Positions 6,904 through 23,125 of a DNA stretch of 64,000 nt are shown here, one piece after another (within the stretch, counting starts at the first letter, position 1; each line of letters begins with the position of its first letter). The notes under the pieces are model-generated. The model ran no database searches. It was not told the DNA's origin and worked only from the letters and a program-made list of their open reading frames with translations. The DNA comes from Devosia sp. Its GTDB lineage: Bacteria; Pseudomonadota; Alphaproteobacteria; Rhizobiales; Devosiaceae. The stretch is from contig NZ_JAGIAW010000014.1 of assembly GCF_017744655.1 (NCBI RefSeq), positions 186,001-250,000 of the forward strand. Reading direction: 5' to 3'. The position numbers and the translations under genes are program-made.

Positions 6904-8973
6904 CTAATATTTTAATTGCCGTTCGAAAAAGGCGGCGAGTTTGCCGTAAGCGAAGCGGGTGAGGGTGCGGTCCTGTTTCGCCCAGGCGTGGCCGGTGCCT
7001 GGCAGTGAGACCAATTCGAACGTTTTGCCCTGACGGATGAGCTTTTCGACGAGCGCCATCGTGTCGGCATAAAGAACCACTTCGTCCTTGGTGCCATGGA
7101 GGATAGTAAGTGCATCTTCGAGACCGGCGCTGTGGAACAAAGCCGACTGGGCGCGGTAGCGCTCGATATAGTCTTCACCCTCGGTGAGGCCCATGATCCA
7201 GCCTTGTTCCGGGTAGGCGTGCCAGACATTCGTGGCCGGCGCCCCGGCAAAGCCGGCGGCGTAGAAGCCCGGCTTCTTGAACAGCGACATCAGCGTCATC
7301 AGGCCGCCATAGCTGGAACCCCAGATGCCGACGCGCTTGGCATCGGCATAGCCAAGCGCGCAGAGCGTCGTGACGCAATCAGCGATGTCGTCGATATCCT
7401 GTGTGCCATAGCTGTTCAGCATTGCCCGGTTCCAGTCGCGGCCGCGGCCGAAACTGCCGCGGATTTCCGGGCTGACCACGACGAAGCCGCGCGAGGCGAG
7501 ATATTGATCGATGCCCCAGCTCGGATGCGCGGCGCGGCCGCCCCACTGGTTGAGCAGACCGTCTGAATAGACCGAACCGACCACCATGGGGTTGGTGCCA
7601 TTGGGCTCGAAGCCGGGCGGCAGCATAACGCGCGCCATCAGCTCGGCGCCGTCGACATGGCTCTTGAAGGTGACATAGCGCACCTCACCCCAGCGTCTTT
7701 CCGCAAAAGCAGGCGGCGGCGAGTGAGTGACTTTTTCCGGTGTACTACTGCCCGGCAGTGTCTGCACGAACAGTTCAGGCGGCGTCATGTCATCGCTGAA
7801 CAGATCGGCGAAGGCACTGAAATCCGGCGCAAAAGTCGGGACATGGATGCCGGCCGGGCCAGTCAGGCGCGACACGTCACCGCCGGCCATCGGCACAGAA
7901 TAGACATGGCGCTCGGCCGGATGGGCTTCATTGCTGATGAAATAGATCGTGCCGCTCGCGGCATTGAGGGTGAACTCGGCGATCTCCCAGGGACCCGAAG
8001 TGATCGGTTCAAGCGCCGCGCCCTGCCCCGGCAAGCGATGCAGATGATTGAAACCATCGCGATCGGTAAGGACGATCAGGCCCCTTCCGTCGGGCGCGAA
8101 GGCTACCTGCCAGTCGGGTCGGATTTTGACCGGATCATGCGCGGCATAATGGATGCCGCGGGCCCCGCTCGACGTATCGAACATGAAGATGGTGTGGTGC
8201 TTGATCGACAGGTCGCTGCTGCTGATGAACAGCGATTTTCCATCGCCCGAGACCCCAAAACCCCAGATCGCATCCTCGGCATCCGGCCGCTCGAACCAGG
8301 CCAAATCGCCGCCATCGACGCCAACCAGGCCAACGCGGCGACGGGTGAGCAGGTCACCGGGAAAGGCGCGCACAAAGCGATCCTTCCGTGCCTCGCCCTG
8401 TGAGTCATAGGAGATTTCGATCTTTCGCGTATTGGTGTCGTCGGCCTCGACGAAGACGAGACGTCCATCCGCGGTCCAATGGAAAGACTCAACGCCGACA
8501 AAGCGCGACCCGGCCACAGCTACATTTGGCCGCGCTGCCATGTCGGCCGCGACCGTCATCAAAGAATTGCCGGCGAGAAATGCCAAAGTGGCGCCATCCG
8601 CCGAGGCGGCAATGGCGCTAACGCCACCGGTGCCGATGGCCAGCGGCTGCACCTTGCCGTCGAGGGAAACCATGTAGAGTTGCCCCAGCAGCACGAAGGC
8701 CAGCCGACCCTCGCTCAGCCAGGCGAGCTCCGAAATTCCGCCCGGCTCGCCGCTCGTCCTGCCAACGCCGAGCTGGGTCAGGCGACGCCGCGACTTGCCG
8801 GCGACATCCCAGATCCAGATATCGCGAAACGTATGACCCGCATCGTTCCAGAGGAAGACGAGGCGCTGGCCGTCCCCCGACCAGGCGGCAGCCGTCGGCA
8901 GCGTGCCGATAATGCTGGGCTCGCTATAGAGCGTTTCGAAGGTCAGCGGGGCGGCAGCGGTCTCGGTGGTCAT
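6904..8973 (-). CDS. S9 family serine peptidase (prolyl oligopeptidase / acylaminoacyl peptidase type)
   Basis: A 689-residue peptidase with an N-terminal WD40-like/PD40 beta-propeller (about 1-420) and a C-terminal alpha/beta hydrolase domain. The nucleophile is Ser554 in GSSYGG; the acid is in LHGTKDEVV and the histidine in LPGTGHAW. No signal peptide is seen, so it acts in the cytosol on short or N-modified peptides. It follows the amidohydrolase gene with a 33-nt gap and is probably in one operon with it, divergent from the peptide importer at 10573. This context says it cleaves imported peptides. Dipeptidyl aminopeptidase and acyl-peptide hydrolase activities cannot be told apart from sequence alone. 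Confidence 0.85.
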   Translation of the reverse strand: MTTETAAAPLTFETLYSEPSIIGTLPTAAAWSGDGQRLVFLWNDAGHTFRDIWIWDVAGKSRRRLTQLGVGRTSGEPGGISELAWLSEGRLAFVLLGQLYMVSLDGKVQPLAIGTGGVSAIAASADGATLAFLAGNSLMTVAADMAARPNVAVAGSRFVGVESFHWTADGRLVFVEADDTNTRKIEISYDSQGEARKDRFVRAFPGDLLTRRRVGLVGVDGGDLAWFERPDAEDAIWGFGVSGDGKSLFISSSDLSIKHHTIFMFDTSSGARGIHYAAHDPVKIRPDWQVAFAPDGRGLIVLTDRDGFNHLHRLPGQGAALEPITSGPWEIAEFTLNAASGTIYFISNEAHPAERHVYSVPMAGGDVSRLTGPAGIHVPTFAPDFSAFADLFSDDMTPPELFVQTLPGSSTPEKVTHSPPPAFAERRWGEVRYVTFKSHVDGAELMARVMLPPGFEPNGTNPMVVGSVYSDGLLNQWGGRAAHPSWGIDQYLASRGFVVVSPEIRGSFGRGRDWNRAMLNSYGTQDIDDIADCVTTLCALGYADAKRVGIWGSSYGGLMTLMSLFKKPGFYAAGFAGAPATNVWHAYPEQGWIMGLTEGEDYIERYRAQSALFHSAGLEDALTILHGTKDEVVLYADTMALVEKLIRQGKTFELVSLPGTGHAWAKQDRTLTRFAYGKLAAFFERQLKY

Positions 8974-9006
8974 TAAAATCTCTTGGCGAAACGGGCAGGA
9001 TAAAAC

Positions 9007-10251
9007 TCAGACCCTGGGGCTGAGGTCGGTCTTGTAGATTTCGCCTTCCTTCATGATCAGGCGCAGGTTCTTTTCCGGCTCGGTGAGTACCGAAATATCC
9101 TTGAGCGGATCACCATCGACCACCAGGATATCGGCGGTGGCGCCCGGGGCGATGACGCCCAGGTCGGGCCGCTGCACGATTTCGGCATTGATCGAGGTTG
9201 CCGACTTCAGCACATCCACCGGTCGCTGCACGCGGGCGCGGATAGTCAGCTCCTGCAACTGGGCAAATTCCATGTCGCCCATCAGATCGGTGCCAAAACC
9301 GAGCTTTACGCCGGCATCCTCGCAAAGGCCGAGCATCACGATGCCGGCATCGTTGACCATGTTGAGCTTCTGCATGACATAGCGCGAGAGGCCCAGGCGC
9401 TCGCCATGCTGCGCGGTGACTTCATAGGCAACCAGCGTCGGCACGACATAGGCATTGGCCGCGGCGACCATGGCTGCGGTTTCTCTGTTGATCAGGTTGG
9501 CATGCTCGATGGTGCGCACGCCGGCGCGGATCGAATGGGCGATCGCTGCGCTTTCATAGGCATGGGCGCAGACATATTTGCCGCGCACCGCTGCCTCACG
9601 CACCACGGTGCGGAGCTCTTCTTCGCTATATTGCGGGATCTCTATGGCATCGTTGGGAGAACCGACGCCGCCCGAAGCCAACACCTTGATATGGTCGGCG
9701 CCCTTGCGCAGTTCGTTCCGCACAACGCTGCGGAGATTGTCGACACCCTCAACGATGCGGCAGGTAAAATAGAAGGCGCTCGAATTGAGATCGATATCGA
9801 GGCTTTCGTCGGTCGTGCTGCGATGGTCGCCATGGCCGCCGATCTGGCTCAGCGCCGGGCCCCCGACAAACAGCCGCGGGCCCGGAATATAGCCCTGAGC
9901 GATGGCATTGCGGATGCCAACATCGCCGCCGGCCACGTCGCGCACGCTGGTGAAGCCGCGATCGAGCATCTTGCGGATGCGCGGCACGGCCCGCGCCGTC
10001 ATCTCGGTCAGCGCGATATTGCGGTCATGCTCGGCGACGAGGTTGATGGCGAAGACGTGCGCGTGCGCATCGATCAGGCCGGGCATCAGCGTGCGTCCGC
10101 CAACGTCATATTCGGTGACGCCCGCGCCGGAAACCGAGTTCTCGGTGACGGCCTCTATACGCCCATCGACCACGAGAACGTTCATGCCCGGAATGGCGTC
10201 GTCACTGCGCCCGTCAAAGAGCGTGGCATTGGTAAAAGCATAGGCTGCCAT
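9007..10251 (-). CDS. Amidohydrolase superfamily protein (imidazolonepropionase/prolidase-like)
   Basis: A 414-residue metal-dependent hydrolase of the COG1228 type. The metal-binding HxH is His63/His65 in LIDAHAHVF; further conserved parts are DHIKVLASGG, the histidine-bearing VCAHAYESAA and RTIEHANLI, and GFGTDLMGD with the catalytic aspartate. No signal peptide, so cytosolic. Members of this group split N-acyl amino acids, Xaa-Pro or Xaa-Arg/Lys dipeptides, or cyclic amides. It heads a two-gene operon with the S9 peptidase and is transcribed away from the peptide ABC importer across a 321-nt region, which supports a role in breaking down the imported compound. The exact substrate is not readable. 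Confidence 0.82.
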   Translation of the reverse strand: MAAYAFTNATLFDGRSDDAIPGMNVLVVDGRIEAVTENSVSGAGVTEYDVGGRTLMPGLIDAHAHVFAINLVAEHDRNIALTEMTARAVPRIRKMLDRGFTSVRDVAGGDVGIRNAIAQGYIPGPRLFVGGPALSQIGGHGDHRSTTDESLDIDLNSSAFYFTCRIVEGVDNLRSVVRNELRKGADHIKVLASGGVGSPNDAIEIPQYSEEELRTVVREAAVRGKYVCAHAYESAAIAHSIRAGVRTIEHANLINRETAAMVAAANAYVVPTLVAYEVTAQHGERLGLSRYVMQKLNMVNDAGIVMLGLCEDAGVKLGFGTDLMGDMEFAQLQELTIRARVQRPVDVLKSATSINAEIVQRPDLGVIAPGATADILVVDGDPLKDISVLTEPEKNLRLIMKEGEIYKTDLSPRV

Positions 10252-10343
10252 GGTAATTCCTCCGGCCGGACACGTGCATACCGGCCGCGATCAGCCGATG
10301 GTCGGCCACTAATGTGTCGGCATCATCGGTGGCTGTAAAGCCA

Positions 10344-10353
10344 TTTGATCAAA
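10344..10353. promoter_or_regulatory. TTTGATCAAA palindrome, distal site
   Basis: A perfect 10-bp palindrome identical to the one at 10457. It lies 93 nt in front of the amidohydrolase start, where it could serve the minus-strand operon, and 113 nt from the second copy. A likely binder is the GntR/FCD regulator at 18700, whose own upstream region carries the related TTGATCA near 18647. Confidence 0.5.
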
Positions 10354-10419
10354 AAATCACAAACACCTGCTGTGCACCGGCTGCCCGCCTCTGAATGGCG
10401 TTTTGCACAGCCGGGGTCG

Positions 10420-10449
10420 TTGACAGCGCCGCAAACCGCCCACTACTAT
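10420..10449 (+). promoter_or_regulatory. Promoter of the peptide importer operon
   Basis: TTGACA at 10420-10425 and TACTAT at 10444-10449, separated by 18 nt, fit a sigma-70-type promoter. Transcription would begin near 10456, immediately at the TTTGATCAAA palindrome, giving an untranslated leader of about 115 nt before the substrate-binding protein gene. Confidence 0.6.
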
Positions 10450-10456
10450 CGCCGCG

Positions 10457-10466
10457 TTTGATCAAA
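10457..10466. promoter_or_regulatory. TTTGATCAAA palindrome at the presumed transcription start
   Basis: Second perfect copy of the palindrome, starting 7 nt after the -10 hexamer TACTAT. A protein bound here would block transcription of the importer operon. Two exact copies within 115 bp of one control region are unlikely by chance. Confidence 0.6.
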
Positions 10467-10572
10467 TGCTCAGACATGAATTTTCAGGCCAGAGGGGAAG
10501 CATGGCCCGACTTTTTGCGAGCGTGATCGTCGAGGTTTGAAGGGAACTGCCGGATTGGCAGAAAGGGAAAAA

Positions 10573-12312
10573 ATGACACATCGGACATCTGCGAGGATCG
10601 CCCTCGCCGGGCTGACGCTCGCGCTGATGAGTTCTGTGGGCGCTATCGCACAGGACGCCCAGACGGGCGGCACGCTGCGGATTCTGGGAACGGCTGAGGT
10701 TGATCGTTTCGACACGGTGCCGCCGGCCACCGCTGATACCGGCAGCTTCTTCCGCGCCGTGACGCGGCAGCTGATCAATTTCGCCGCTTCGGAAGATCCG
10801 GACGAACAGATCGCGCCACAGGCCGACCTTGCAGACAGCGTGCCCGTGCCGACCGACGAGGGCCTGACCTATACGTTCAAGCTGCGTCAGGGCGCCAATT
10901 GGGATGCGCCGGATGGCGCGCGCCAGATCGTTGCGGCCGACGTGGAACGCGGCTTCATGCGCCTCTGCAACCCATCCCTTCCGGCCCCGGCTGTTTCGTA
11001 CTTTGAAGACCTCATCGTCGGCTTTGCTGACTTCTGCGCCGGCTTTGCCGATGTCGAGCCGACCGCCGAGGCAATGAAGGCTTATATCGAGGCCAATGAC
11101 GTCGCCGGCATCGAGACGCCGTCGGACGACACCGTCATCTTCCGCCTCAAGTATGCGGCCAATGACTTCATTTACCTCCTCACCCTGCCGGTCACGACGC
11201 CTGCACCGGTGGAAGTACTCGACTACCTACCGGACAGCCCGGAATATCGCGAGAACTTCATTTCGAGCGGCCCCTACACCATCGAGTCCTATGTGCCCGA
11301 CACGCAGGTCACGCTGGTGCGCAACCCCGCCTGGCAGGCCGAGAGCGACCCGCTGCGCAAGGCTTATGTCGACACGATCGAAGTCATCGCCGGAGTGCAG
11401 CCCGATGCTGCCATGCAGCAACTGCAGTCCGGCGACGGCGACATGCTCTATGACATCAACGTTCCGCCCGTAACGGTGCAGATGCTGAGCATGCAGGGCG
11501 ACGAGAAGATCTCGACGCTGGCCGAGGGTTCCTCGCGCATGATCTGGATCAACACCGTCTCGGAGAACAATGACGGCGCCCTACGCAATCCGCTGGTGCG
11601 CCAGGCGCTGAACTATGCTGTCAACAAGGCGGCCATCGTGCAGCAGCTGGGCGGGCCGGAATTCGCCACCCCGCTCAACGGCATCTTCCCGCTCGGCATC
11701 CTGGGCCACCACGATTTCGCGCCCTATCCGAGCAACAACAGCGAAGGCGATGTCGCCAAGGCCAAGGAACTGCTGGCCGAAGCCGGCTACCCCGATGGCC
11801 TGTCGCTGAAAATGCCGTTCCGGAATGCCGGAAATGGCGCTGCCGAAGCCCAGGTGCTGCAGGCAAGTCTCGAAGCCGCCGGCTTCAAGATCGAGCTGGT
11901 ACCGACCCCGGCCTCCGACTTCTATCCGCGCCTGATAACCAATTTCGACAATGCCCTCAATGGCGTGTGGGACCTGGTGCCATCGGGCTGGTCGCCGGAT
12001 TGGCCGGGCGGGGCCGCGCGCTCCATTTTCCAGCCGCAATATACCTATGACGGCACCCACGGCACCTTCAACTTCTCGGACTACAACAACGAGGCTGCCA
12101 ACGAAGTCGCCGCCCGCGCGCTGGCCACCTCCGACCTGGCCGAGGCGGCGAAGCTCTGGAACGAGGTCGACGAGATCGTCATGGCCGATCCCCCGACCGT
12201 GCCGCTGATCTCTCAGACCACGGTTCTCTACCATGGCATCGCCGTCCAGAACTTCCTGCCCTATGCCGCTGGCGGCAATGGCGACTGGACCAATGTCTGG
12301 CTGAGCCGCTGA
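10573..12312 (+). CDS. Peptide ABC importer, periplasmic substrate-binding protein (SBP family 5)
   Basis: A 579-residue DppA/OppA-type binding protein. The start chosen is the ATG at 10573, preceded by GAAAGGGA and followed by a signal peptide (MTHRTSARIALAG... ending SVGAIAQ); the upstream TTG at 10537 would add an unlikely leader. Family features are GGTLRILGTAEVDRFD at the mature N-terminus, YTFKLRQGANW, NYAVNKAAIVQQ and a C-terminal WNEVDEIVMADPP. It is long for the family. It opens the operon of fused ATPase, two permeases, FAD oxidoreductase, aminotransferase, GntR regulator and RidA. A 9-bp hairpin follows it. The ligand is probably a peptide or modified amino acid. Confidence 0.88.
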   Translation: MTHRTSARIALAGLTLALMSSVGAIAQDAQTGGTLRILGTAEVDRFDTVPPATADTGSFFRAVTRQLINFAASEDPDEQIAPQADLADSVPVPTDEGLTYTFKLRQGANWDAPDGARQIVAADVERGFMRLCNPSLPAPAVSYFEDLIVGFADFCAGFADVEPTAEAMKAYIEANDVAGIETPSDDTVIFRLKYAANDFIYLLTLPVTTPAPVEVLDYLPDSPEYRENFISSGPYTIESYVPDTQVTLVRNPAWQAESDPLRKAYVDTIEVIAGVQPDAAMQQLQSGDGDMLYDINVPPVTVQMLSMQGDEKISTLAEGSSRMIWINTVSENNDGALRNPLVRQALNYAVNKAAIVQQLGGPEFATPLNGIFPLGILGHHDFAPYPSNNSEGDVAKAKELLAEAGYPDGLSLKMPFRNAGNGAAEAQVLQASLEAAGFKIELVPTPASDFYPRLITNFDNALNGVWDLVPSGWSPDWPGGAARSIFQPQYTYDGTHGTFNFSDYNNEAANEVAARALATSDLAEAAKLWNEVDEIVMADPPTVPLISQTTVLYHGIAVQNFLPYAAGGNGDWTNVWLSR

Positions 12313-12328
12313 GCTCTATGAATTCGAC

Positions 12329-12351
12329 GGAGGCCGGCATGTCCGGCCTCC
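12329..12351 (+). other. Intra-operon hairpin after the substrate-binding-protein gene
   Basis: A perfect 9-bp stem (GGAGGCCGG with CCGGCCTCC) closing a 5-nt loop, 17 nt after the stop codon of the binding-protein gene and 32 nt before the ATPase gene. There is no T-run after it, so it is more likely an mRNA-stabilising or partial attenuation hairpin than a full terminator. Confidence 0.7.
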
Positions 12352-12382
12352 TCATACCGGCCCCATGGCGACATAGTTCTTT

Positions 12383-14226
<1,844 letters not shown>

Positions 14227-14230
<4 letters not shown>

Positions 14231-15168
14231 GCTCCGAGATCAAACAGCGCGGCTCGCTGGAGCTGACCCTGCGTCGCCTACTCGCCGACCGCGCCGGCCT
14301 TGTGGCCATGCTCTTCATAATAGCCCTCGTGGCCGCAGCTATCGGTGCCGACGGCATCGCGGCGCTAACCGGACACGGCCCAACTGCACAATTCCTCGAT
14401 GTGGGCCTCACCCCCACCGGCCTGCCCGTGCCGCCTAGTGGCGAGTTCCTTTTCGGCACCGATCAGTTAGGCCGCGACGTGCTCGTCCGTCTCGCCCATG
14501 GCGCCCGTATCTCGCTATCCATCGGCGTCGTCGCTTCGCTGCTGGCCGCGATGATCGGCGTCACCATCGGCCTTGTTGCTGGCTATTTCGGCGGCTGGGT
14601 TGACGTCGTACTGGGCCGGCTGATGGACCTTGTCATGAGCATCCCCGTGCTGCTCTGCATGCTCTCGCTGGTTGCCGTCTTCGGCCCCAGCCTGCCGCTC
14701 AGCCTCTCGGTGATCGTCTTCTTCTCCTGGACCACGATGGGGCGCGTCATCCGCGGCCAGGTCCTCTCGCTCAAGGAGCGCGAATTCGTCCTCGCCTCCC
14801 GCTCGATGGGCGCCGGCCATCTCTCGATCATGTTCACCGACATCCTGCCCAATCTGGGTGCCCCGATCATCATCTACACGACGATGATGGTGCCCACCTC
14901 GATCATCTTCGAGGCGACGCTTTCCTTCCTCGGCCTCGGCATCGTGCCGCCAGCCCCGAGCTGGGGCGGCATGCTGGCCGAGGCGGCCAATAACTCGATC
15001 TACATGTTCGCCTGGTGGCTGGTGCTGTTCCCGGGCCTGGCGCTGCTGTTTACCACCCTGTCCTTCAATATCCTGGGCGATGCCCTGCGCGACGCGCTCG
15101 ATCCGGCCAGCATGCGCAACAAGCTGCAGAAGAAGAAAAAGAAGCCCTCCGTGGGGACCGCGTCATGA
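14227..15168 (+). CDS. Peptide ABC importer, DppC-type permease
   Basis: A 313-residue inner-membrane protein with an N-terminal membrane segment, a periplasmic stretch ending in the family hallmark LFGTDQLGRDVLVRLAHGAR (about residues 75-95), and five further helices. The EAA loop is seen as LASRSMGAGHLSIMFTDILP. It overlaps the ATPase gene and the next permease gene by 4 nt each. The order here is ATPase, C-type, B-type, the reverse of the usual B before C. The C-terminus ends in a lysine-rich tail (KLQKKKKKPS) in the cytosol. Confidence 0.9.
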
Positions 15169-16121
15169 TCCGCTTCATCGCCAGCCGCATCGGCTTTGCC
15201 GCGCTCGTCCTCGTCATGCTCAGCGGCTTCGTCTTCACCCTGTTCTTCGTCGCGCCCGGCGATCCCGCGCGCATCGTCGCCGGCGAACGCGCGACCGAGG
15301 CCCAAGTGGCCCAGGTGCGCGAAAACCTCGGCCTCGACCGCCCGATCATTGAGCAATATTTCAGCTTTGTCGGTCGCAGCCTCAGCGGCGATCTCGGCTA
15401 TTCCTACCGCAATCAGCAGCCGGTGCTGGAGCTGATCAAGAACCGCATGCCCGCAACCATTTCGCTCTGCGTCGGCGCCGTCGTGCTCTGGCTTCTCATG
15501 GGCATTCCCATCGGCATCATGTCGGCGCGACGGCCGGGTAGCCTTGTCGACCGGCTGGGCCAGGGTTTCGTGCTGATCGGCGTCAGCTTCCCGTCTTTCG
15601 TGCTGGGCATGGCCGCGCTCTATTTCCTCTATTTCGTGCCGCGCCAGGCCGGCTTCACCCTCTTCCCGCCCGGCGGCTTCCGCCCCTTCCTGCCCAATCC
15701 CGGCCTCTGGGCCTGGCATCTGATGCTACCCTGGTTCACCCTGGCGCTGACCTCCGCCGCCATCTATGCCCGCCTGACCCGCGGCCAGTTGCTCGAAGTG
15801 CTGGGCGAGGACTATATCCGCACCGCCCGCGCCAAGGGCCTTTCCGAGCGCAAGGTGGTCTACAAGCACGGCGTTCGCTCGATCTTTTCGCCCCTCACCA
15901 CCCAGCTCGGTGCCGATATCGCAGCGCTCCTGGGCGGAGCGCTGGTCACCGAGCAGGTATTCGGCCTCCAGGGCATCGGCTCGCTGGCCGTGCAATCGGT
16001 CCAGACGCAGGACCGGCCGGTGATCATCGGCGTGGTCATGCTCGCCGGCTTCTTCATCGTCATCGCCAACCTGATTGTGGATTTCCTCTACATCCTGCTC
16101 GATCCACGGATCCGGACCTGA
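15165..16121 (+). CDS. Peptide ABC importer, DppB-type permease
   Basis: A 318-residue permease. The ATG at 15165 is chosen because it overlaps the previous stop (ATGA) and gives the standard N-terminus MIRFIASRIGFAALVLVMLS; longer reading to 15015 is only an overlapping open frame inside the C-type permease. Hallmarks are FFVAPGDPARIVAG, the alpha-helical NLGLDRPIIEQY, GDLGYSYRNQQPV and the EAA loop YIRTARAKGLSERKVVYKHG. It pairs with the DppC-type permease and is followed 2 nt later by the oxidoreductase gene, which ties import to catabolism. Confidence 0.9.
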   Translation: MIRFIASRIGFAALVLVMLSGFVFTLFFVAPGDPARIVAGERATEAQVAQVRENLGLDRPIIEQYFSFVGRSLSGDLGYSYRNQQPVLELIKNRMPATISLCVGAVVLWLLMGIPIGIMSARRPGSLVDRLGQGFVLIGVSFPSFVLGMAALYFLYFVPRQAGFTLFPPGGFRPFLPNPGLWAWHLMLPWFTLALTSAAIYARLTRGQLLEVLGEDYIRTARAKGLSERKVVYKHGVRSIFSPLTTQLGADIAALLGGALVTEQVFGLQGIGSLAVQSVQTQDRPVIIGVVMLAGFFIVIANLIVDFLYILLDPRIRT

Positions 16122-16123
16122 CC

Positions 16124-17407
16124 ATGCCTCTTCCCACCCCGGACACGCTCTGGACACGCACGGCACGGCTGCCGGCAGAAACCGACGCCACGCTGCCTCA
16201 ATCCGTTGATGTCGCCGTGATCGGCGGCGGCTTCACCGGCCTCACCGCAGCCCGCGAACTGCTCATCGCCGGACGCTCCGTCGCCGTGCTGGAAGCGGGC
16301 CGCATCGGCACCGGCGCCAGCGGCATGAATGCCGGCTTTGTCGTCCCCAATTTCGCCAAGGCCGATCCCAACGCGGTACGCGCCAAACTCGGCACCGAAC
16401 GCGGCAATGCCCTGCTGCGCCTCGTCGGTGACGGTGCCAATGCGGTGTTTCGCACCATAGAGGAAGAGGGCATCGCCTGCGATGCGCGCCAGACCGGCTG
16501 GCTGAACCCAGCCTTCGGCGCCGCCAGCGCCGAAATGCTCAAAGCCCGCGCTGCCCTCTGGCGCGATCTCGGGCGTCCCGTCTCATTTCTCGACGCTGAT
16601 GAAATCCGCGAACAGACCGGCATGGACATCTATTCCGGCGCCCTGCTCGACGCCGAAGGCGGCACCATCCATCCGCTCGATTATCTGCGTGGCCTCGTGC
16701 AATCCGTGCGCCGCCGCGGCGGTGCCGTGCTTGAGGGGCAAACTGTCGACAAGGTGACGCGCGACGGCACCAGCTGGCGCCTCACCATGCGCTCCGGCGC
16801 AACCCTCATTGCCAGCAAGGTGCTGCTCTGCACCAACGCCTTCACGACTGGCGCTGCCGCGCGCATGGGCCGTTCGACCGTGCCTCTGCGCGTCTATCAA
16901 ATCGCCACCTCCCCGGCCGATCCCGAAACGGTTCGGCGCATCGCCCCCGACGGGCGCCCCGTCGGCGACACGCGCCAGAACCTCTTCACCTATCGGCTCG
17001 ATCGCGACAATCGCCTGATCAGCGGCGGCATGGCGGCCATTCCCTTTGGCGCTTTCGAACGCCTCGGTCGCGCCGTTGCCGAACGGCTCAGCAGTGAGCT
17101 CGGCCTGCCCCAGGCCGTGACGCCCGAAGTGGTGTGGACCGGCGTCGCCGCCATGACGCCCGATTTCATGCCGCGCATTCATAAACTGGGCGAGGGCTGG
17201 TTCGGCGGCATTGGCTGCAATGGTCGCGGCATCGCCATGGCGGCGCAGCTCGGGCGCGTGCTGGCCCGCGCCGCCCTGGGTGAAGACCCCAAGCAATTGC
17301 CTATTCCGCTGCGGCCTCTGCGCCCGCTGCCCTTCCACCGCTTTACGCCAATCGTGGCCTCGGCTGCCCTCCTCCAGGCCCGCCTCAAGGACACATTGGC
17401 CCGATGA
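16124..17407 (+). CDS. DAO-type FAD-dependent oxidoreductase (glycine/D-amino acid oxidase-like)
   Basis: A 427-residue flavoprotein. The dinucleotide-binding fold is at residues about 26-60: VAVIGGGFTGLTAARELL and the acidic residue in VLEAGRIGTGASG. The C-terminal FAD-contacting part is WFGGIGCNGRGIAMAAQLGR. This is the DAO fold shared by D-amino acid oxidases, sarcosine oxidases and gamma-glutamylputrescine oxidase (PuuB), to which the layout is closest. It would oxidise an amine or amino acid to an imine, with release of ammonia after hydrolysis. It starts 2 nt after the permease gene. The RidA protein at the end of the locus fits an imine-producing enzyme. The substrate is unknown. Confidence 0.83.
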   Translation: MPLPTPDTLWTRTARLPAETDATLPQSVDVAVIGGGFTGLTAARELLIAGRSVAVLEAGRIGTGASGMNAGFVVPNFAKADPNAVRAKLGTERGNALLRLVGDGANAVFRTIEEEGIACDARQTGWLNPAFGAASAEMLKARAALWRDLGRPVSFLDADEIREQTGMDIYSGALLDAEGGTIHPLDYLRGLVQSVRRRGGAVLEGQTVDKVTRDGTSWRLTMRSGATLIASKVLLCTNAFTTGAAARMGRSTVPLRVYQIATSPADPETVRRIAPDGRPVGDTRQNLFTYRLDRDNRLISGGMAAIPFGAFERLGRAVAERLSSELGLPQAVTPEVVWTGVAAMTPDFMPRIHKLGEGWFGGIGCNGRGIAMAAQLGRVLARAALGEDPKQLPIPLRPLRPLPFHRFTPIVASAALLQARLKDTLAR

Positions 17408-17450
17408 TCGCACAACAAGCGACCATGAACGCCGTCAGGATATCAGTGAC

Positions 17451-18617
17451 ATGAAGCAACTCGCCCGCCGCATCACCGGCACTTCGAAAAAATCCTTCGG
17501 CATGTATGCACGCGCCGCAGCCAGCGGCCGCGACGACCTGATCCACATGGAGCTTGGCAAGCCCTTTGCCGACACGCCTCAGCACATCAAGGACGCCACC
17601 ATTGCCGCGATCCAGGACGGCAAGGTGCACTATTCAGACTTGCCAGGCATTCTGCCACTGCGTGAAGCCGCCGCTGCAAAGCTCGCCCGACAGAACGGCA
17701 TGGACGTCTCGCCCGACCAGATCGTCGTGACCAATGGCCTGACCCACGGCTCCTATGCCGCGCTCATGGCTTTTATCGACGATGGCGACGAAGTCATCCT
17801 GCTCGAACCCTACTACCCCCAGCATATCGGCAAGATCGAGCTGGCCGGGGGCATAGCGGTGCCGGTGCCACTCGACGCCGCCAGGGATTACGCTATCGAT
17901 GCGGCGCGTATCGAGGCCAGCGTCACCCCGCGCACCAAGATGATCGTACTGATCAATCCGTGCAATCCGACCGGCCGCGTCTATTCACGCGCGGAATTGC
18001 TGGCTTTGGCGGACATCGCCATCCGCCACGACCTGATCGTGGTCTCGGACGAGGTCTACGAAGAGATCGTCTATGACGAGGCCAGGCACATCTCCATCGC
18101 CTCCCTGCCCGGCATGGCCGAGCGCACGGTGACGCTCTTCGCTTTCACCAAGAGCTATGCCATGGACGGTTGGCGCATCGGCTACTTGGCAGCCCCCAAG
18201 GCGGCGGTCGGCGCGATCCTCAAAATCACCGCCAATGACGTGACCCACGTCAATACCTTCATCCAGGAAGGCGCCCTGGCCGCGCTCACCGGCGATCCCG
18301 CTGTCCTGTCCGAACTGATCGCTGACGACCGTGCCAAGCGCGACCGCGTCGTCACCCGCCTCAACCAGATTTCCGGCATCACCTGCCCCTGGCCTCAGGG
18401 CACCATCTATGCCTTCCCCGACATTTCCGCCCTCGGCCTACCGGCCCAGACCCTGGCCGAGCGGCTGATGGACGAGACCGGCGTCGTCACCGAGGCCGGC
18501 AGCTTCTATGGTGCCGCGGGCGAAGGCCGCTTGCGCGTCTGTTTCGGATCACTGTCCTTGGAAGAGATCGATACGGCACTCGACCGGGTCGCCGCCTTTG
18601 TCAGGCAACTGGGCTAG
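17451..18617 (+). CDS. Class I/II PLP-dependent aminotransferase
   Basis: A 388-residue fold-type I aminotransferase. The start is the ATG at 17451; the longer open frame from 17211 overlaps the oxidoreductase gene. Family marks are VTNGLTHGSYAALM for the phosphate site region, LINPCNPTGRVYSRAEL with the Asn-Pro-Thr-Gly of cofactor binding, VVSDEVYEEIVYD, and the Schiff-base lysine Lys234 in FAFTKSYAMDGWRIGY with the carboxylate-binding arginine in GRLRVCFG near the end. It belongs with aspartate/methionine-type aminotransferases. In this operon it probably handles the amino acid set free from the imported compound. Confidence 0.88.
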   Translation: MKQLARRITGTSKKSFGMYARAAASGRDDLIHMELGKPFADTPQHIKDATIAAIQDGKVHYSDLPGILPLREAAAAKLARQNGMDVSPDQIVVTNGLTHGSYAALMAFIDDGDEVILLEPYYPQHIGKIELAGGIAVPVPLDAARDYAIDAARIEASVTPRTKMIVLINPCNPTGRVYSRAELLALADIAIRHDLIVVSDEVYEEIVYDEARHISIASLPGMAERTVTLFAFTKSYAMDGWRIGYLAAPKAAVGAILKITANDVTHVNTFIQEGALAALTGDPAVLSELIADDRAKRDRVVTRLNQISGITCPWPQGTIYAFPDISALGLPAQTLAERLMDETGVVTEAGSFYGAAGEGRLRVCFGSLSLEEIDTALDRVAAFVRQLG

Positions 18618-18699
18618 CGGTATTTCCGAGTTGCGATGGGTGGCGGTTGATCATACTAGCAAAGAATAGGGATCGCGGCCGATAGGAAAGGGTATTGGA

Positions 18700-19425
18700 T
18701 TGCTCGAAAGCAAATTCTCGACCGGCGAGCTGAAGCCTGTCTCCTCCCGCAAGACGGTGCACGATCTCGTCTATGAGCAATTGCGCGACGCCCTAATGTC
18801 AGGCGCCTTCGAAGCCCGCAAAGCCTTTACTATCGCGTCGCTTTCCGAGCGCTTCCACACCTCGCATATGCCAGTGCGCGAAGCGCTGCGCCGCCTCGCC
18901 TCAGAAAACGCTCTCAGCATTTCAGCCTCCGGCACGGCCTATGTTCCCGCCATCACTGCGCCGGAACTGCGCGACATCACCCTGGCGCGCATGATCGTCG
19001 AAGGCGCCACCGCCCGCATTGCTGGTCCGCTGCTCACCGAGCCGGACATCGCCACGCTCGAGCAGATCCTCGCCCATCACCGGGCCAGCGCCAGCGCCGG
19101 CAATAATACCGAAATGACCGCGGCCAATCGCGCGTTCCACTTCCACATCTACCAGGCCGCCGGCAGCCGCGTGCTGCTCAGCCAGATCGAAAACCTCTGG
19201 CTGCGCTCCGGCCCCTATGTCCGCTTCCTCTCCGACCGGATGAGTGACCTGCTTAAAACCGAGCACCGTTCCGGCTTCACTGACCAGCACGAAGCCATGA
19301 TCCAGGCCATTCGCGGGCGCGACTGGATCGCGCTGGGCATGGCCTGTGAAGCCGACATTAAAGGCTCGCAAGACCTGCTGCTCGATATTCTGGCGGCAGA
19401 AGAAGAAACCTCCGACACAGCCTGA
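18700..19425 (+). CDS. GntR family regulator, FCD subgroup, of the peptide/amino-acid locus
   Basis: A 241-residue regulator with the winged helix at about residues 20-85 (TSHMPVREALRRLASENAL is the recognition part) and a helical FCD domain with metal-ligand type residues (DITLARMIVEGATARIAG, RAFHFHIYQAAGS). It starts with TTG at 18700, supported by AGGAAAGG at 18683-18690. It lies 82 nt after the aminotransferase gene. The sequence TTGATCA about 50 nt upstream resembles the two TTTGATCAAA sites at 10344 and 10457, so this protein is the best candidate for their binder and probably also controls itself. Confidence 0.85.
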   Translation: MLESKFSTGELKPVSSRKTVHDLVYEQLRDALMSGAFEARKAFTIASLSERFHTSHMPVREALRRLASENALSISASGTAYVPAITAPELRDITLARMIVEGATARIAGPLLTEPDIATLEQILAHHRASASAGNNTEMTAANRAFHFHIYQAAGSRVLLSQIENLWLRSGPYVRFLSDRMSDLLKTEHRSGFTDQHEAMIQAIRGRDWIALGMACEADIKGSQDLLLDILAAEEETSDTA

Positions 19426-19493
19426 GCCGAGAAGCCAGGCCATTTCCGCGCATGACGCCCTGCGCATTCCCTCCCAACATCGAGACCGCCCCC

Positions 19494-19883
19494 ATGTCCA
19501 CTGACCGCCGCGCCATTTCCTTCGGCTCGAAATTCGAAAAGCTGGCCGGCTATTCCCGCGCCTTGGTTGACGGCGAATGGGTCTTCGTCTCCGGCACGGC
19601 TGGGCACAACGAGGATGGCACCATCTCGCCCGATCCCGACGAGCAGACCCGCCAGTCGCTTCGGACCATTGCCCGCGCGCTGGAGCAGGCCGATGCTGGC
19701 CTCAGCGACATCGTCCGCCTCAACGTCTATATCGCCGACCGGCAGGACGTGATGACAGTATCAAAGGTGCTTGGCGAAACCTTTTCCGATCCCCGCCCCA
19801 CCAATACAACCATCATCTGCGGCTTCCCGGTGGAAGAGATAAAAGTCGAGATCGAGGTAACCGCTCGAAAGCGCGTCGATTGA
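19494..19883 (+). CDS. RidA/YjgF/YER057c/UK114 family imine deaminase
   Basis: A 129-residue RidA-type protein. The ATG at 19494 gives the usual length and N-terminus; an upstream ATG at 19452 would add 14 residues without a better ribosome-binding site. Typical parts are VFVSGTAGHNEDG, QTRQSLRTIARALEQAGA-like QADAGLSDIVRLNVYI, and the C-terminal EIKVEIEVTA. RidA proteins hydrolyse reactive imines and enamines set free by PLP enzymes and flavin amine oxidases. Both types of enzyme are encoded just upstream, so it is probably a dedicated partner. The catalytic arginine near position 105 of classic RidA is not obvious here (PTNTTIICGF), so its activity may differ from archetypal RidA. Confidence 0.85.
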   Translation: MSTDRRAISFGSKFEKLAGYSRALVDGEWVFVSGTAGHNEDGTISPDPDEQTRQSLRTIARALEQADAGLSDIVRLNVYIADRQDVMTVSKVLGETFSDPRPTNTTIICGFPVEEIKVEIEVTARKRVD

Positions 19884-20044: not shown

Positions 20045-20725
20045 CTAGACCACCAGGGCCTTGTCCAACCACAGCGCGAAGCCGCCCTTGAAGGCATTTG
20101 CATTATCGCCGCGCCGGGCCTTGGGTGGCAAATGGTCGAGCCTCACGGCATTGCCGCCGCCGATCACCACATAGTCGGGCTCCATGGCCGCCGTGAGCTG
20201 TTCGACAGCATCGAAGACATGCTTTTGCCATTTGTCATGGCCGCGTTTCTCAAGGCTCGCTTCGCCAAGATAGTCCTCGAACGTGCGGCCCTTCCGATAG
20301 GGCAGATGCGCCAGTTCCATGGGCTGCGCGATGTTCTCAACGATCATGGCGGCGCCGAGGCCGGTGCCAAGGCCGAGAAAAAGCATGCGGCCGCCCTGAT
20401 AGCTGCCGATGGCCTGCATCAGCGCGTCGTTGACGATCCGCACCGGCTTGCCGAAACGCTTGGCGAAGTCGAAACCAACCCAGCCGGGGGCGAGGTTGTG
20501 TGGATCGCTGAGTACCTTGTCGTGCACGACCGGGCCGGGATAGCCCATGGCGATGACATCGTAGTCGATCCCATCAGCCAGCTTTTCGACGATGTCAGCC
20601 ATCGTCGCCGCATTCATCGTGGGGCCGGAAACGGCCTTTCGCTCGTCGCCGCCGGCGCTCGACAAGATCTTGACGTGCGAACCGCCGATATCGATGGCGA
20701 GGACGACGGGCTCCTTATTTTCCAT
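20045..20725 (-). CDS. ROK family glucokinase (polyphosphate glucokinase-like)
   Basis: A 226-residue sugar kinase. The phosphate loop is [13 protein letters not shown] near the N-terminus, the catalytic aspartate is in [17 protein letters not shown], and the adenosine-side loop is [14 protein letters not shown]. The zinc-binding histidine/cysteine cluster of classic ROK proteins is absent, and the chain is short, both as in polyphosphate-dependent glucokinases. It would turn glucose into glucose-6-phosphate. It overlaps the end of zwf (by 11 nt) and is last in an operon with glucoamylase, gnd and zwf, so it probably phosphorylates the glucose released there. ATP or polyphosphate as phosphate donor cannot be decided. 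Confidence 0.8.
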
Positions 20726-22130
20726 GGAGGATCACTCCATCCTTGCCCGGATCCACCCAACCTCCGGGCGGCTCGAAACCCTGCATCGCGGCGTGTGGCC
20801 CCCAACTCCCGGGAGCATAGGAAGCCGGGGCGGATTTGCGGGCGAGGACGGGATCCACAACGCGCCAGGCGAGTTCGGACGCATCCTGGCGCGTGAAAAG
20901 CTGACGCTTTCCGTCCATGGCGTCGCCGATCAGGCGCTCATAGGGCATCATGTCGTCGGTAGTGTCATCGACGGCATCGAGTTCGACGGGCTCGCCGACC
21001 ATGTCGCTGCCCGCTGCCTTACGCCGCGCCCCTATGCCAATCGTCACCTGCGGGCCGACGCGGAAGCGGACGTAGTTGGCAGCAGCGTCCTCCACGTCAT
21101 CGAAGAGGGCAACCGGCGGCTTGCGGAAACGAACCACGACTTCGGTGGCGCGAACCGGCAATTGCTTGCCGGCGCGGATATAAAAGGGCACGCCTTTCCA
21201 ACGCCAGGTATCGACGAAGAGCCGCACTGCAGCAAAGGTTTCAGCCTTGGAGTCCGCCGCGACACCGGGCTCGTCGCGATAACCGTCGAACTGGCCACGG
21301 ATCACATCGGCTTCGGTCAGCGGGCGCATCGCCTTGAGAATCTGTACCTTTTCGTCGCTGAGATCGTCTGACGCACTGGTGACCGGTGGCTCCATGGCGA
21401 GAAGCAAAAGCACGTTGACCAGATGGTTCTGGATCACGTCGCGAATGCAGCCGACTTCGTCATAAAACTTGCCGCGACCGGCAATGCCAAAGTCCTCGGC
21501 CATGGTGATCTGCACGCTTTCGACATAGGTGCGATTCCAGACCGGCTCGAGAAAGGCATTGGCGAAGCGGAAATATAAGAGGTTCTGCACCGCTTCCTTG
21601 CCGAGGAAATGGTCGATGCGGAAGACCGCTTCTTCAGGGAAGGCGCGATGCAGCACCGCGTTGAGCGCCTTTGCAGTCGCAAGATCATGTCCAAAGGGTT
21701 TTTCAACCATCAGTCGCGACTTCTTGGCGATACCTGCGGCCTTCAACGCATCAATGACAGTGCCAAAGAGCGAGGGAGGAATGGCGAGATAATAGAGCGG
21801 GTGGGTAGCGCCGCCGAGCGCGGTGCGCAGCTTCTCGAAGGTCTCGGCATTTTTGTAGTCGCCGCTGACATAGCGCAGTTGCGACTTGAACCGGGCAAAC
21901 ACGGCTTCATCCACGCTACCAAATTGCCTAGTGATGCCGTCCCGAGCCCGCTCGGCCAATTTTTCGACATCCCAATCGTCGAAGGCGACGCCGACGATGG
22001 GCTCGCTGAGATTACCGCGGCGCACCATCTGGTAGAGCGATGGCAGGATCATCTTATAGGCCAGATCGCCCGTAGCGCCGAAAACCACGAGCGCGTCGGA
22101 GCGATCGTCCGGGGGTCTGGTTGTGCTCAT
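20715..22130 (-). CDS. zwf: Glucose-6-phosphate 1-dehydrogenase
   Basis: A 471-residue enzyme oxidising glucose-6-phosphate to 6-phosphogluconolactone with NAD(P)+. The N-terminal Rossmann fold begins [19 protein letters not shown], the [11 protein letters not shown] segment and the active-site signature [15 protein letters not shown] are intact, and the C-terminal part YIRAGKQLP binds substrate phosphate. It starts within a 4-nt overlap with gnd and its end overlaps the glucokinase gene. The order gnd, zwf, glucokinase is compact. No 6-phosphogluconolactonase gene is present in this cluster. Confidence 0.95.
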
Positions 22131-23125
22131 TTCTCTTCGTGCCCGCCAAAAGAGTAGCGCATTGCCGAAAGCAGCTTGTTGGCGAATTCGTCGTTATCGC
22201 GCGAGGCGAAACGGTTGAAGAGGGCAGAGGAGAGGACCGGCGCCGGAACCCCGGTTTCGATGGCGGCCTGCAGGGTCCAGCGGCCTTCGCCGGAGTCCGA
22301 AACCTTCCCGCCAAAGCGCGAGAGGGTCGCGTCGTCCTTGAGGGTCTGCGCGGTCAGGTCGAGCAGCCAGGAACCGATGACGCTGCCGTGACGCCAGACT
22401 TCGGTGACGGCGGCGAGATCGATGTCGAAGCGGTAGTATTCGGGATTGTGGAGGGGCGCTGTCTCGGCGTCGGCGGCGCGTTTTTCGTTGCCCGCATCGG
22501 CAGCCTTGAGAATGTTAAGGCCTTCGGCATAGGCGGCCATGATGCCGTATTCGATGCCGTTGTGCACCATCTTGACGAAGTGCCCGGCGCCCGGCGGGCC
22601 ACAATGGAGATAGCCCTGGCTTGCCGTGTCCGCCGTGCCGGGTGTGGCGCCGGAGCCATCCTGGCCCGGGGCGAGTGCGGCGAGGATGGGGTCGAGCGTT
22701 TTCACCGCCTCGACCGAAGCGCCCACCATCAGGCTATAGCCGCGTTGCAGGCCCCAGACGCCGCCGCTCGTGCCGATATCGACATAGGAAATGCCCCTCG
22801 CGGCAAATTCCGCGGCGAGGTCCACCGCGTCGCGATAGTTGGAATTGCCGCCATCGATGAGAATGTCGCCCAGTTCCATCTGGCTGGCGATCTCTCGGGC
22901 AACGCGACCGGTGATCGCCGCGGGGAGCATCAGCCAGACGGCGCGGGGTTTTGCGAGCTTGGCCAAGAGATCGGCAATATCAGAGGCTCCGATGGCACCC
23001 TCGGCGACCAGCGCCGCAACGCTTTGCGGGTTGAGGTCCTGTACCACGCATTGATGGCCCGCCTGCATCAGTCGCCTGACCATGTTGGCCCCCATGCGAC
23101 CCAGACCAATCATTCCCAGCTGCAT
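22127..23125 (-). CDS. gnd: 6-phosphogluconate dehydrogenase, decarboxylating, short form
   Basis: A 332-residue enzyme that converts 6-phosphogluconate to ribulose-5-phosphate. The N-terminal nucleotide fold is [19 protein letters not shown], the substrate-binding signature is [22 protein letters not shown], and the catalytic part follows in [23 protein letters not shown]. At about 330 residues it is the short (type III) form common in alphaproteobacteria and Gram-positive bacteria, which often prefers NAD+; that preference is inferred. It follows the glucoamylase gene by 22 nt and overlaps zwf by 4 nt. Confidence 0.93.

Follow-up and report, generated by a model that had tools for sequence, protein, structure and literature searches.

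In a 64,000-nt stretch of DNA from Devosia sp. (contig NZ_JAGIAW010000014.1; hereafter the window), profile searches placed ten genes at positions 6904–19883, arranged as two divergent operons in a genome of 4.41 Mb, which confirms the gene set and layout given in an earlier note on this DNA (Table 1). The minus-strand operon encodes an S9 peptidase and an amidohydrolase, and the plus-strand operon encodes, in this order, a solute-binding protein (SBP), a fused ATPase, two permeases, a DAO-type oxidase (OX), a class I aminotransferase (AT), an FCD-type GntR regulator and a Rid-family protein. The transporter corresponds to a Dpp/Opp importer in having an SBP_bac_5 protein, both permeases and two ATPase domains, and its SBP appears, from reading by eye only, to carry a signal peptide.

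A candidate control element, which the earlier note had not mentioned, is present in the divergent promoter region as a pair of copies of the palindrome TTTGATCAAA. The promoter-like sequence of the importer operon ends at 10449, which puts copy 2 across the probable start of transcription, a position that would suit a repressor site. Both copies, together with GTTGACA, are invariant in six aligned rows comprising the window and five other Devosia. Across the whole genome there are three exact copies of TTTGATCAAA; the third lies inside a frame that looks methylase-like by eye, and seems unrelated to the cluster.

Table 1. Positions and assignments of genes and candidate control sites in the cluster (positions refer to the window).
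Feature	Position	Strand	Remarks
S9 family serine peptidase, 689 aa	6904..8973	-	Pfam Peptidase_S9 and DPPIV_N; best solved relative Stenotrophomonas DPP IV 2ecf
cog1228 prolidase-type amidohydrolase, 414 aa	9007..10251	-	best PDB match 3mkv, 351.6 bits
Candidate operator copy 1, TTTGATCAAA	10344..10353	.	~92 bp upstream of amidohydrolase start
Sigma-70-like promoter TTGACA-18-TACTAT, importer operon	10420..10449	+	1 found vs 0.1 expected in shuffles
Candidate operator copy 2, TTTGATCAAA	10457..10466	.	7 bp past -10 box
Peptide-type solute-binding protein SBP_bac_5	10573..12312	+	start refined to ATG 10573
Fused DppD/DppF-type ATPase, two ABC_tran domains	12383..14230	+	profile matches
Permease, DppC/OppC type	14227..15168	+	profile matches
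Permease, DppB/OppB type	15165..16121	+	profile matches
FAD-dependent DAO-type amine oxidase/dehydrogenase OX, 427 aa	16124..17407	+	Pfam DAO; AlphaFold model
Class I PLP aminotransferase AT	17451..18617	+	start refined to ATG 17451
FCD-type GntR regulator	18700..19425	+	profile match; start codon uncertain
Rid-family protein, Asn for catalytic Arg	19494..19883	+	Pfam Ribonuc_L-PSP; start refined to ATG 19494

Co-inheritance of the enzyme–importer core

A scan of named genomes for OX, with 18 oxidase relatives aligned, gave 184 stretches with a relative, from which the best 80 loci were kept; genes in these loci were called by a simple script, and some starts are wrong. The S9 peptidase, amidohydrolase, SBP, ATPase, both permeases, OX and AT are all present in seven of the 80 loci, namely in five Devosia, in Mesorhizobium loti LU and in Aestuariivirga. 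The oxidase of D. riboflavina (L031) is 96% identical to OX of the window, and in D. limi the set is completed by a 60% relative of AT from an adjacent cluster. At another Devosia locus the cluster is broken off by the contig end. In M. loti LU and Aestuariivirga the importer genes and those for amidohydrolase, AT, OX and S9 peptidase occupy opposite strands, with identities of 54–76%, and no GntR or Rid gene was found within the collected stretch. Partial sets occur in Maritimibacter (amidohydrolase (54%), GntR, Opp-type importer and OX) and at one proteobacterial locus (OX-AT-S9).

Among 36 genomes of the same genus, close orthologs of OX (82–87% identity), amidohydrolase (88–94%) and AT (85–92%) coincide, the same two genomes holding all of them. 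As judged by identical coordinates, G022 and G023 of this sample are apparently the genomes of the OX loci L035 and L032. Distant amidohydrolase relatives (37–41%) are found in nine further genomes of this sample and a 60% AT in one. A class-wide search of 385 genomes, run under a strict limit and with at most four candidates scored per genome, found the amidohydrolase only in its own genome and as one 48% relative. The cluster is thus rare, and its genes are inherited jointly, being acquired or lost as one set. The same gene set thus recurs in other genomes, and the lack of co-conservation that would speak against the earlier note's logic of import, hydrolysis and oxidation did not occur: the cluster is coherent, and its enzyme–importer core is confirmed as a real unit, beyond chance. 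No published description of this gene set was recognised among the matches listed, which is no proof of absence.

In D. limi, the cluster that abuts the peptide cluster (L036:12653-20960) comprises a second Rid gene, a LIV importer, a lipase-like hydrolase, the AT (60%) and a GntR gene, with the operator at the AT start. Next to the cluster in the window, the minus-strand frames at 20045-23125 are, by eye, presumably glucokinase-, glucose-6-phosphate dehydrogenase- and 6-phosphogluconate dehydrogenase-like.

A conserved palindrome links regulator, Rid and aminotransferase genes

The 80 OX loci contain 43 copies of TTTGATCAAA, distributed over 28 loci, compared with a mean of 0.73 for 160 composition-matched palindromes. 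The sites are found at AT, OX, Rid, GntR, importer and amidohydrolase genes. Relative to the called frames, 39 of the 43 lie not more than 60 bp inside and four lie deeper, while several more overlap the called first stretch. An AT of at least 55% identity is present in 26 of the 28 loci with a site versus 14 of the 52 without one (Fisher test, uncorrected for relatedness); the motif loci are related rather than independent, as 10 of the 43 sites come from the cluster in the five Devosia and a further one stands at the AT of D. limi. As background, the 36 same-genus genomes hold 38 copies, and the 21 genomes with the motif include some that lack the cluster; three of them (G025, G026 and G030) carry four copies each without the peptide cluster, so that single sites mean little. 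The palindrome next in frequency, ATATCGATAT, with 24 copies spread over 22 loci, was rejected as a regulatory site and served as a control, since it proved to be a coding artefact: out of 25 start positions, overlaps included, 21 fall in LIV ATPase frames, one in another frame and three in one tandem run.

The cluster loci of M. loti and Aestuariivirga likewise carry TTTGATCAAA. As these stretches have the site but no GntR gene, the regulator, if it is the binder, was expected elsewhere in these genomes, near a site. The best GntR homologue of Aestuariivirga (45%) has a site 466 bp upstream, where the glyoxalase-fold gene in front of it starts; immediately after this homologue comes a Rid gene whose product is 73% identical to that of the window. 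A second homologue (33%) has a site ~150 bp upstream. The best homologue of M. loti (44%) is also followed by a Rid gene (66%), and one-mismatch sites, but no exact site, precede this Rid gene and the preceding glyoxalase-fold gene. For another M. loti homologue (43%), an exact copy is found 140 bp upstream. Finally, in a Devosia genome that has an AT (60%) and a GntR regulator (47%) but gave no match for OX, the site directly precedes AT. Even with the enzymes located elsewhere, the regulator, Rid, AT and the operator thus stay connected, and the palindrome is conserved at promoters of both the regulator and the putative target genes, as expected of an FCD-type GntR protein. Taken together, TTTGATCAAA is a newly noticed candidate operator of the two divergent operons, which GntR may bind; with it, the entire regulon could be mapped and the inducer sought.

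A row of a glyoxalase-fold gene, GntR, an Arg-less Rid and a second glyoxalase-fold gene was observed in two genera (L166:7640-9587 and L169:5915-8133). Both rows have exact or one-mismatch copies of TTTGATCAAA, and a sugar-type solute-binding protein is encoded nearby in L166.

Predicted enzyme functions and the likely substrate class

We read the locus as a GntR-controlled, patchily inherited catabolic unit for amide-bound secondary (imino) amino acids, in which hydrolysis would be followed by oxidation, and give this reading a probability of roughly 0.45. The Dpp-type importer would take up short peptides or N-acylated amino acids, and, apparently in the cytoplasm, the amidohydrolase and S9 peptidase would cut amide bonds that involve the nitrogen of a secondary amino acid (cyclic, proline- or pipecolate-like). 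OX would then oxidise the released secondary amino acid, yielding an imine. AT might act on an amino acid product, and AT and the Rid protein on the products, with oxidation presumably preceding transamination. GntR would repress both operons via the two TTTGATCAAA sites, one of them over the start of the importer promoter. The earlier note had called the locus complete, which is unproven, as none of the ten genes encodes a dehydrogenase consuming the oxidation product; it had left the substrate open, for which amide-bound imino acids now appear to be the likeliest class.

This assignment starts from the amidohydrolase, whose PDB matches are led by 3mkv (351.6 bits) and 3feq (303.6 bits), followed by a large gap to 163.9 bits. 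Its motifs HxH, Lys, His, His and Asp, starting at 61, 188, 228, 248 and 320, align with both structures, and we take them to form a binuclear metal centre. The AHAY and GGH motifs align as well. The score for the NCBIfam Xaa-Pro dipeptidase model NF051886 is 259 bits, below the cut-off of 500. According to PMC11511702, the prolidases Sgx9260b/c (3mkv/3feq) hydrolyse N-acyl-prolines as well as Xaa-Pro and have a homologue in an L-pipecolic acid acylase. For the prolidase group, PMC10699109 describes an oxyanion His and a Tyr responsible for binding the carboxylate of the substrate, and both residues appear to be conserved in AHAY and GGH. Thus, the protein is on our best reading nearest to prolidases for Xaa-Pro and N-acyl-proline, and the same activity is predicted for it. 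Relatives with 45–48% identity occur on plasmids; in the four of 123 records inspected, a 4-hydroxyproline epimerase gene lies beside one relative and PutA beside another, and dihydrodipicolinate-synthase-family genes are present in three of the four.

The S9 peptidase has the motifs GSSYGG (552), GTKDEV (627) and GTGHAW (659), presumably the Ser/Asp/His triad. Like the Dpp importer and the class I AT, it belongs to a broad family, as would suit general oligopeptide scavenging, in which broad peptidases and amino acid enzymes share a regulator and have no dedicated substrate. The locus has, however, its own regulator, a rare operator, patchy joint inheritance and a co-inherited oxidase, all of which point to a dedicated pathway, and we rank scavenging last among the alternatives considered here.

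An aromatic peptide or N-acyl compound of the tryptophan or kynurenine type, with AT as an aromatic aminotransferase and OX as an oxidase of N-alkyl aromatic amino acids, is a live rival, because operator-bearing loci include tryptophan-dioxygenase-like and kynureninase-like genes. The second PDB match of AT is an archaeal aromatic aminotransferase. Among the 80 loci, OX relatives lie near genes for tryptophan-dioxygenase-like (four loci), kynureninase-like class V (nine), PF04199 cyclase (four) and indolepyruvate oxidoreductase-like proteins (five). The operator stands at the start of the dioxygenase-like gene in L073, while in L077 and L086 it separates kynureninase-like genes from AT or Rid genes, and an AT relative (64%) on a Sulfitobacter plasmid adjoins a gene of the same kynureninase-like family. 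Yet none of these tryptophan-type genes is found in the Devosia cluster, the exact operator motif is absent from the Sulfitobacter AT stretches, and the amidohydrolase groups with prolidases. Moreover, the score of the dioxygenase-like protein is 124, below the cut-off of 391, and kynureninase is only a weak match for the class V protein (E 6e-14), with cysteine desulfurases next. We therefore regard an aromatic substrate as improbable.

As an observation in its own right, OX or AT relatives in L050, L077, L086, L073 and the Sulfitobacter locus L111 are accompanied by varying sets of divergent tryptophan-2,3-dioxygenase-like, kynureninase-like, PF04199 and indolepyruvate oxidoreductase-like genes; these neighbourhoods, some with the operator, possibly represent an undescribed kynurenine-like pathway.

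For OX, the best NCBIfam match is the L-pipecolate oxidase AmaA (residues 8-406, 246.3 bits versus a cut-off of 600). Its AlphaFold model (mean pLDDT 90.6) is predicted to have the FAD-binding DAO/sarcosine oxidase fold, with glycine oxidase, sarcosine oxidases, L-amino acid deaminase, L-proline dehydrogenase and opine dehydrogenase as neighbours in the model comparison. Because these include enzymes of both kinds, the fold settles neither a primary nor a secondary amine. An N-alkyl or opine-type amino acid (N-methyl or N-carboxyalkyl), from which OX would split the C-N bond before AT transaminates the freed primary amino acid, would be consistent with those modelled neighbours that are sarcosine, N-methyltryptophan and iminodiacetate oxidases or a flavin opine dehydrogenase, and its order of steps would give AT a natural role. 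A shared fold proves no function, though; the ten genes include none for formaldehyde handling, and amidohydrolase and S9 peptidase would be unexplained unless the compound is also amide-bound. We place this alternative below the aromatic one in probability.

The surroundings of OX relatives vary. Rhizobium-type loci such as L039, L046 and L054 (64–66% identity) share a conserved neighbourhood with a LIV importer and an aldo/keto reductase, and neighbourhoods of this type variously include a DUF3830 or a TIGR04076-like gene. In L079-L082, L087, L088, L092 and L099, the OX relative lies near an ornithine-cyclodeaminase-family gene that is nearest to pyrroline/piperideine-2-carboxylate reductases, and seven of these eight loci also have a BisC-type S/N-oxide reductase. 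An Azospirillum locus (L133:5461-13994) has an OX relative (39%) after an M20 aminoacylase, a LIV importer and, near the OX relative, two genes annotated as L-2-amino-thiazoline-4-carboxylic acid hydrolase. Plasmid contexts of AT and OX relatives did not settle the substrate.

Returning to amide-bound imino acids, several observations weigh against them. OX falls far below the AmaA cut-off, and among its top neighbours in the fold comparison are enzymes that act on primary amines (glycine oxidase and L-amino acid deaminase). The amidohydrolase accompanies OX in only eight of the 80 loci and is missing from 72; a LIV-type binding protein is present in 58, an aldo/keto reductase in 40 and a DUF3830 gene in 14. 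In addition, the operator also occurs at tryptophan-dioxygenase-like and kynureninase-like genes elsewhere, and two of the four plasmid contexts of the amidohydrolase show only dihydrodipicolinate-synthase-family genes. Plain proline would need no OX, because L-proline is covered by a PutA-like frame in the own genome, 1131 residues long and matching proline dehydrogenase, and classical proline use as the sole role was rejected on these grounds. A search of the own genome for the proline racemase/epimerase family PF05544 gave no match, and a hydroxyproline operon was rejected for this absence of the epimerase. Since the PutA-like frame is present and the epimerase route absent, pipecolate-like, hydroxylated or otherwise modified imino acids would fit better. 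For N-acylated or peptide-bound imino acids, the cluster supplies candidate enzymes of hydrolysis and oxidation.

The Rid protein and comparison with known systems

According to PMC4433059, imine hydrolysis by RidA needs a conserved catalytic Arg (Arg105/107), the Arg-less subfamilies Rid4 to Rid7 “appear not to hydrolyze imines” and have unknown functions, and Rid genes cluster with FAD amine oxidases. HMMER alignments to 5yu2 and 2dyy place an Asn at the position of this Arg in the Rid protein of the window, which sets it apart from RidA. P(T/A)NTT stands at this place in each of the 26 related Rid proteins from the loci and in the two unlinked copies, and among the 11 Rid-family matches in the own genome at least one has the Arg. 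With Asn in place of the catalytic Arg, the imine clean-up by RidA that the earlier note had proposed is doubtful and finds no support; the protein is part of the unit but probably no classical imine hydrolase. A bolder reading, which we consider doubtful, is an undescribed alphaproteobacterial TTTGATCAAA regulon for amide-bound secondary amino acids, in which the Arg-less Rid protein would carry out a new reaction on the imine formed by OX, e.g., as a cyclic-imine isomerase or ring-opening hydrolase. If true, the Arg-less Rid type would gain its first pathway. As this protein is tied by operon or operator to OX, AT and the regulator in several genera, with two copies unlinked, its role is directly testable.

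Compared with known systems, the cluster combines familiar parts in a different way. The window's Rid protein belongs to Ribonuc_L-PSP and is clustered with an FAD oxidase, as in the RidA/Rid family at large, and differs from RidA in its Asn. The S9 peptidase is similar over its full length to dipeptidyl peptidase IV (S9B; 2ecf and 5yp1) but has GSSYGG where 2ecf has GWSNGG. In dipeptidyl peptidase IV a Glu-Glu pair is for the N-terminal amine; in the alignment to 2ecf, no more than one Glu is retained and the residues after it are lost. A plain pair of dipeptidyl peptidase IV and prolidase is weakened as an explanation, since the Glu pair appears not to be kept as a pair.

The amidohydrolase has its closest solved relatives in Sgx9260b/c (3MKV and 3FEQ/3N2C) and the L-pipecolic acid acylase (M38), whose motifs it apparently retains, but it stays under the Xaa-Pro dipeptidase cut-off. 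OX resembles AmaA, likewise of the DAO family, as its best NCBIfam match, but scores far under the cut-off, and no aldehyde dehydrogenase is encoded among the ten cluster genes. Bacterial hydroxyproline catabolic operons combine imino acid import and oxidation, and a relative of the amidohydrolase adjoins a 4-hydroxyproline epimerase gene. In contrast to these operons, the Devosia cluster carries AT and an S9 peptidase instead, in a genome without PF05544.

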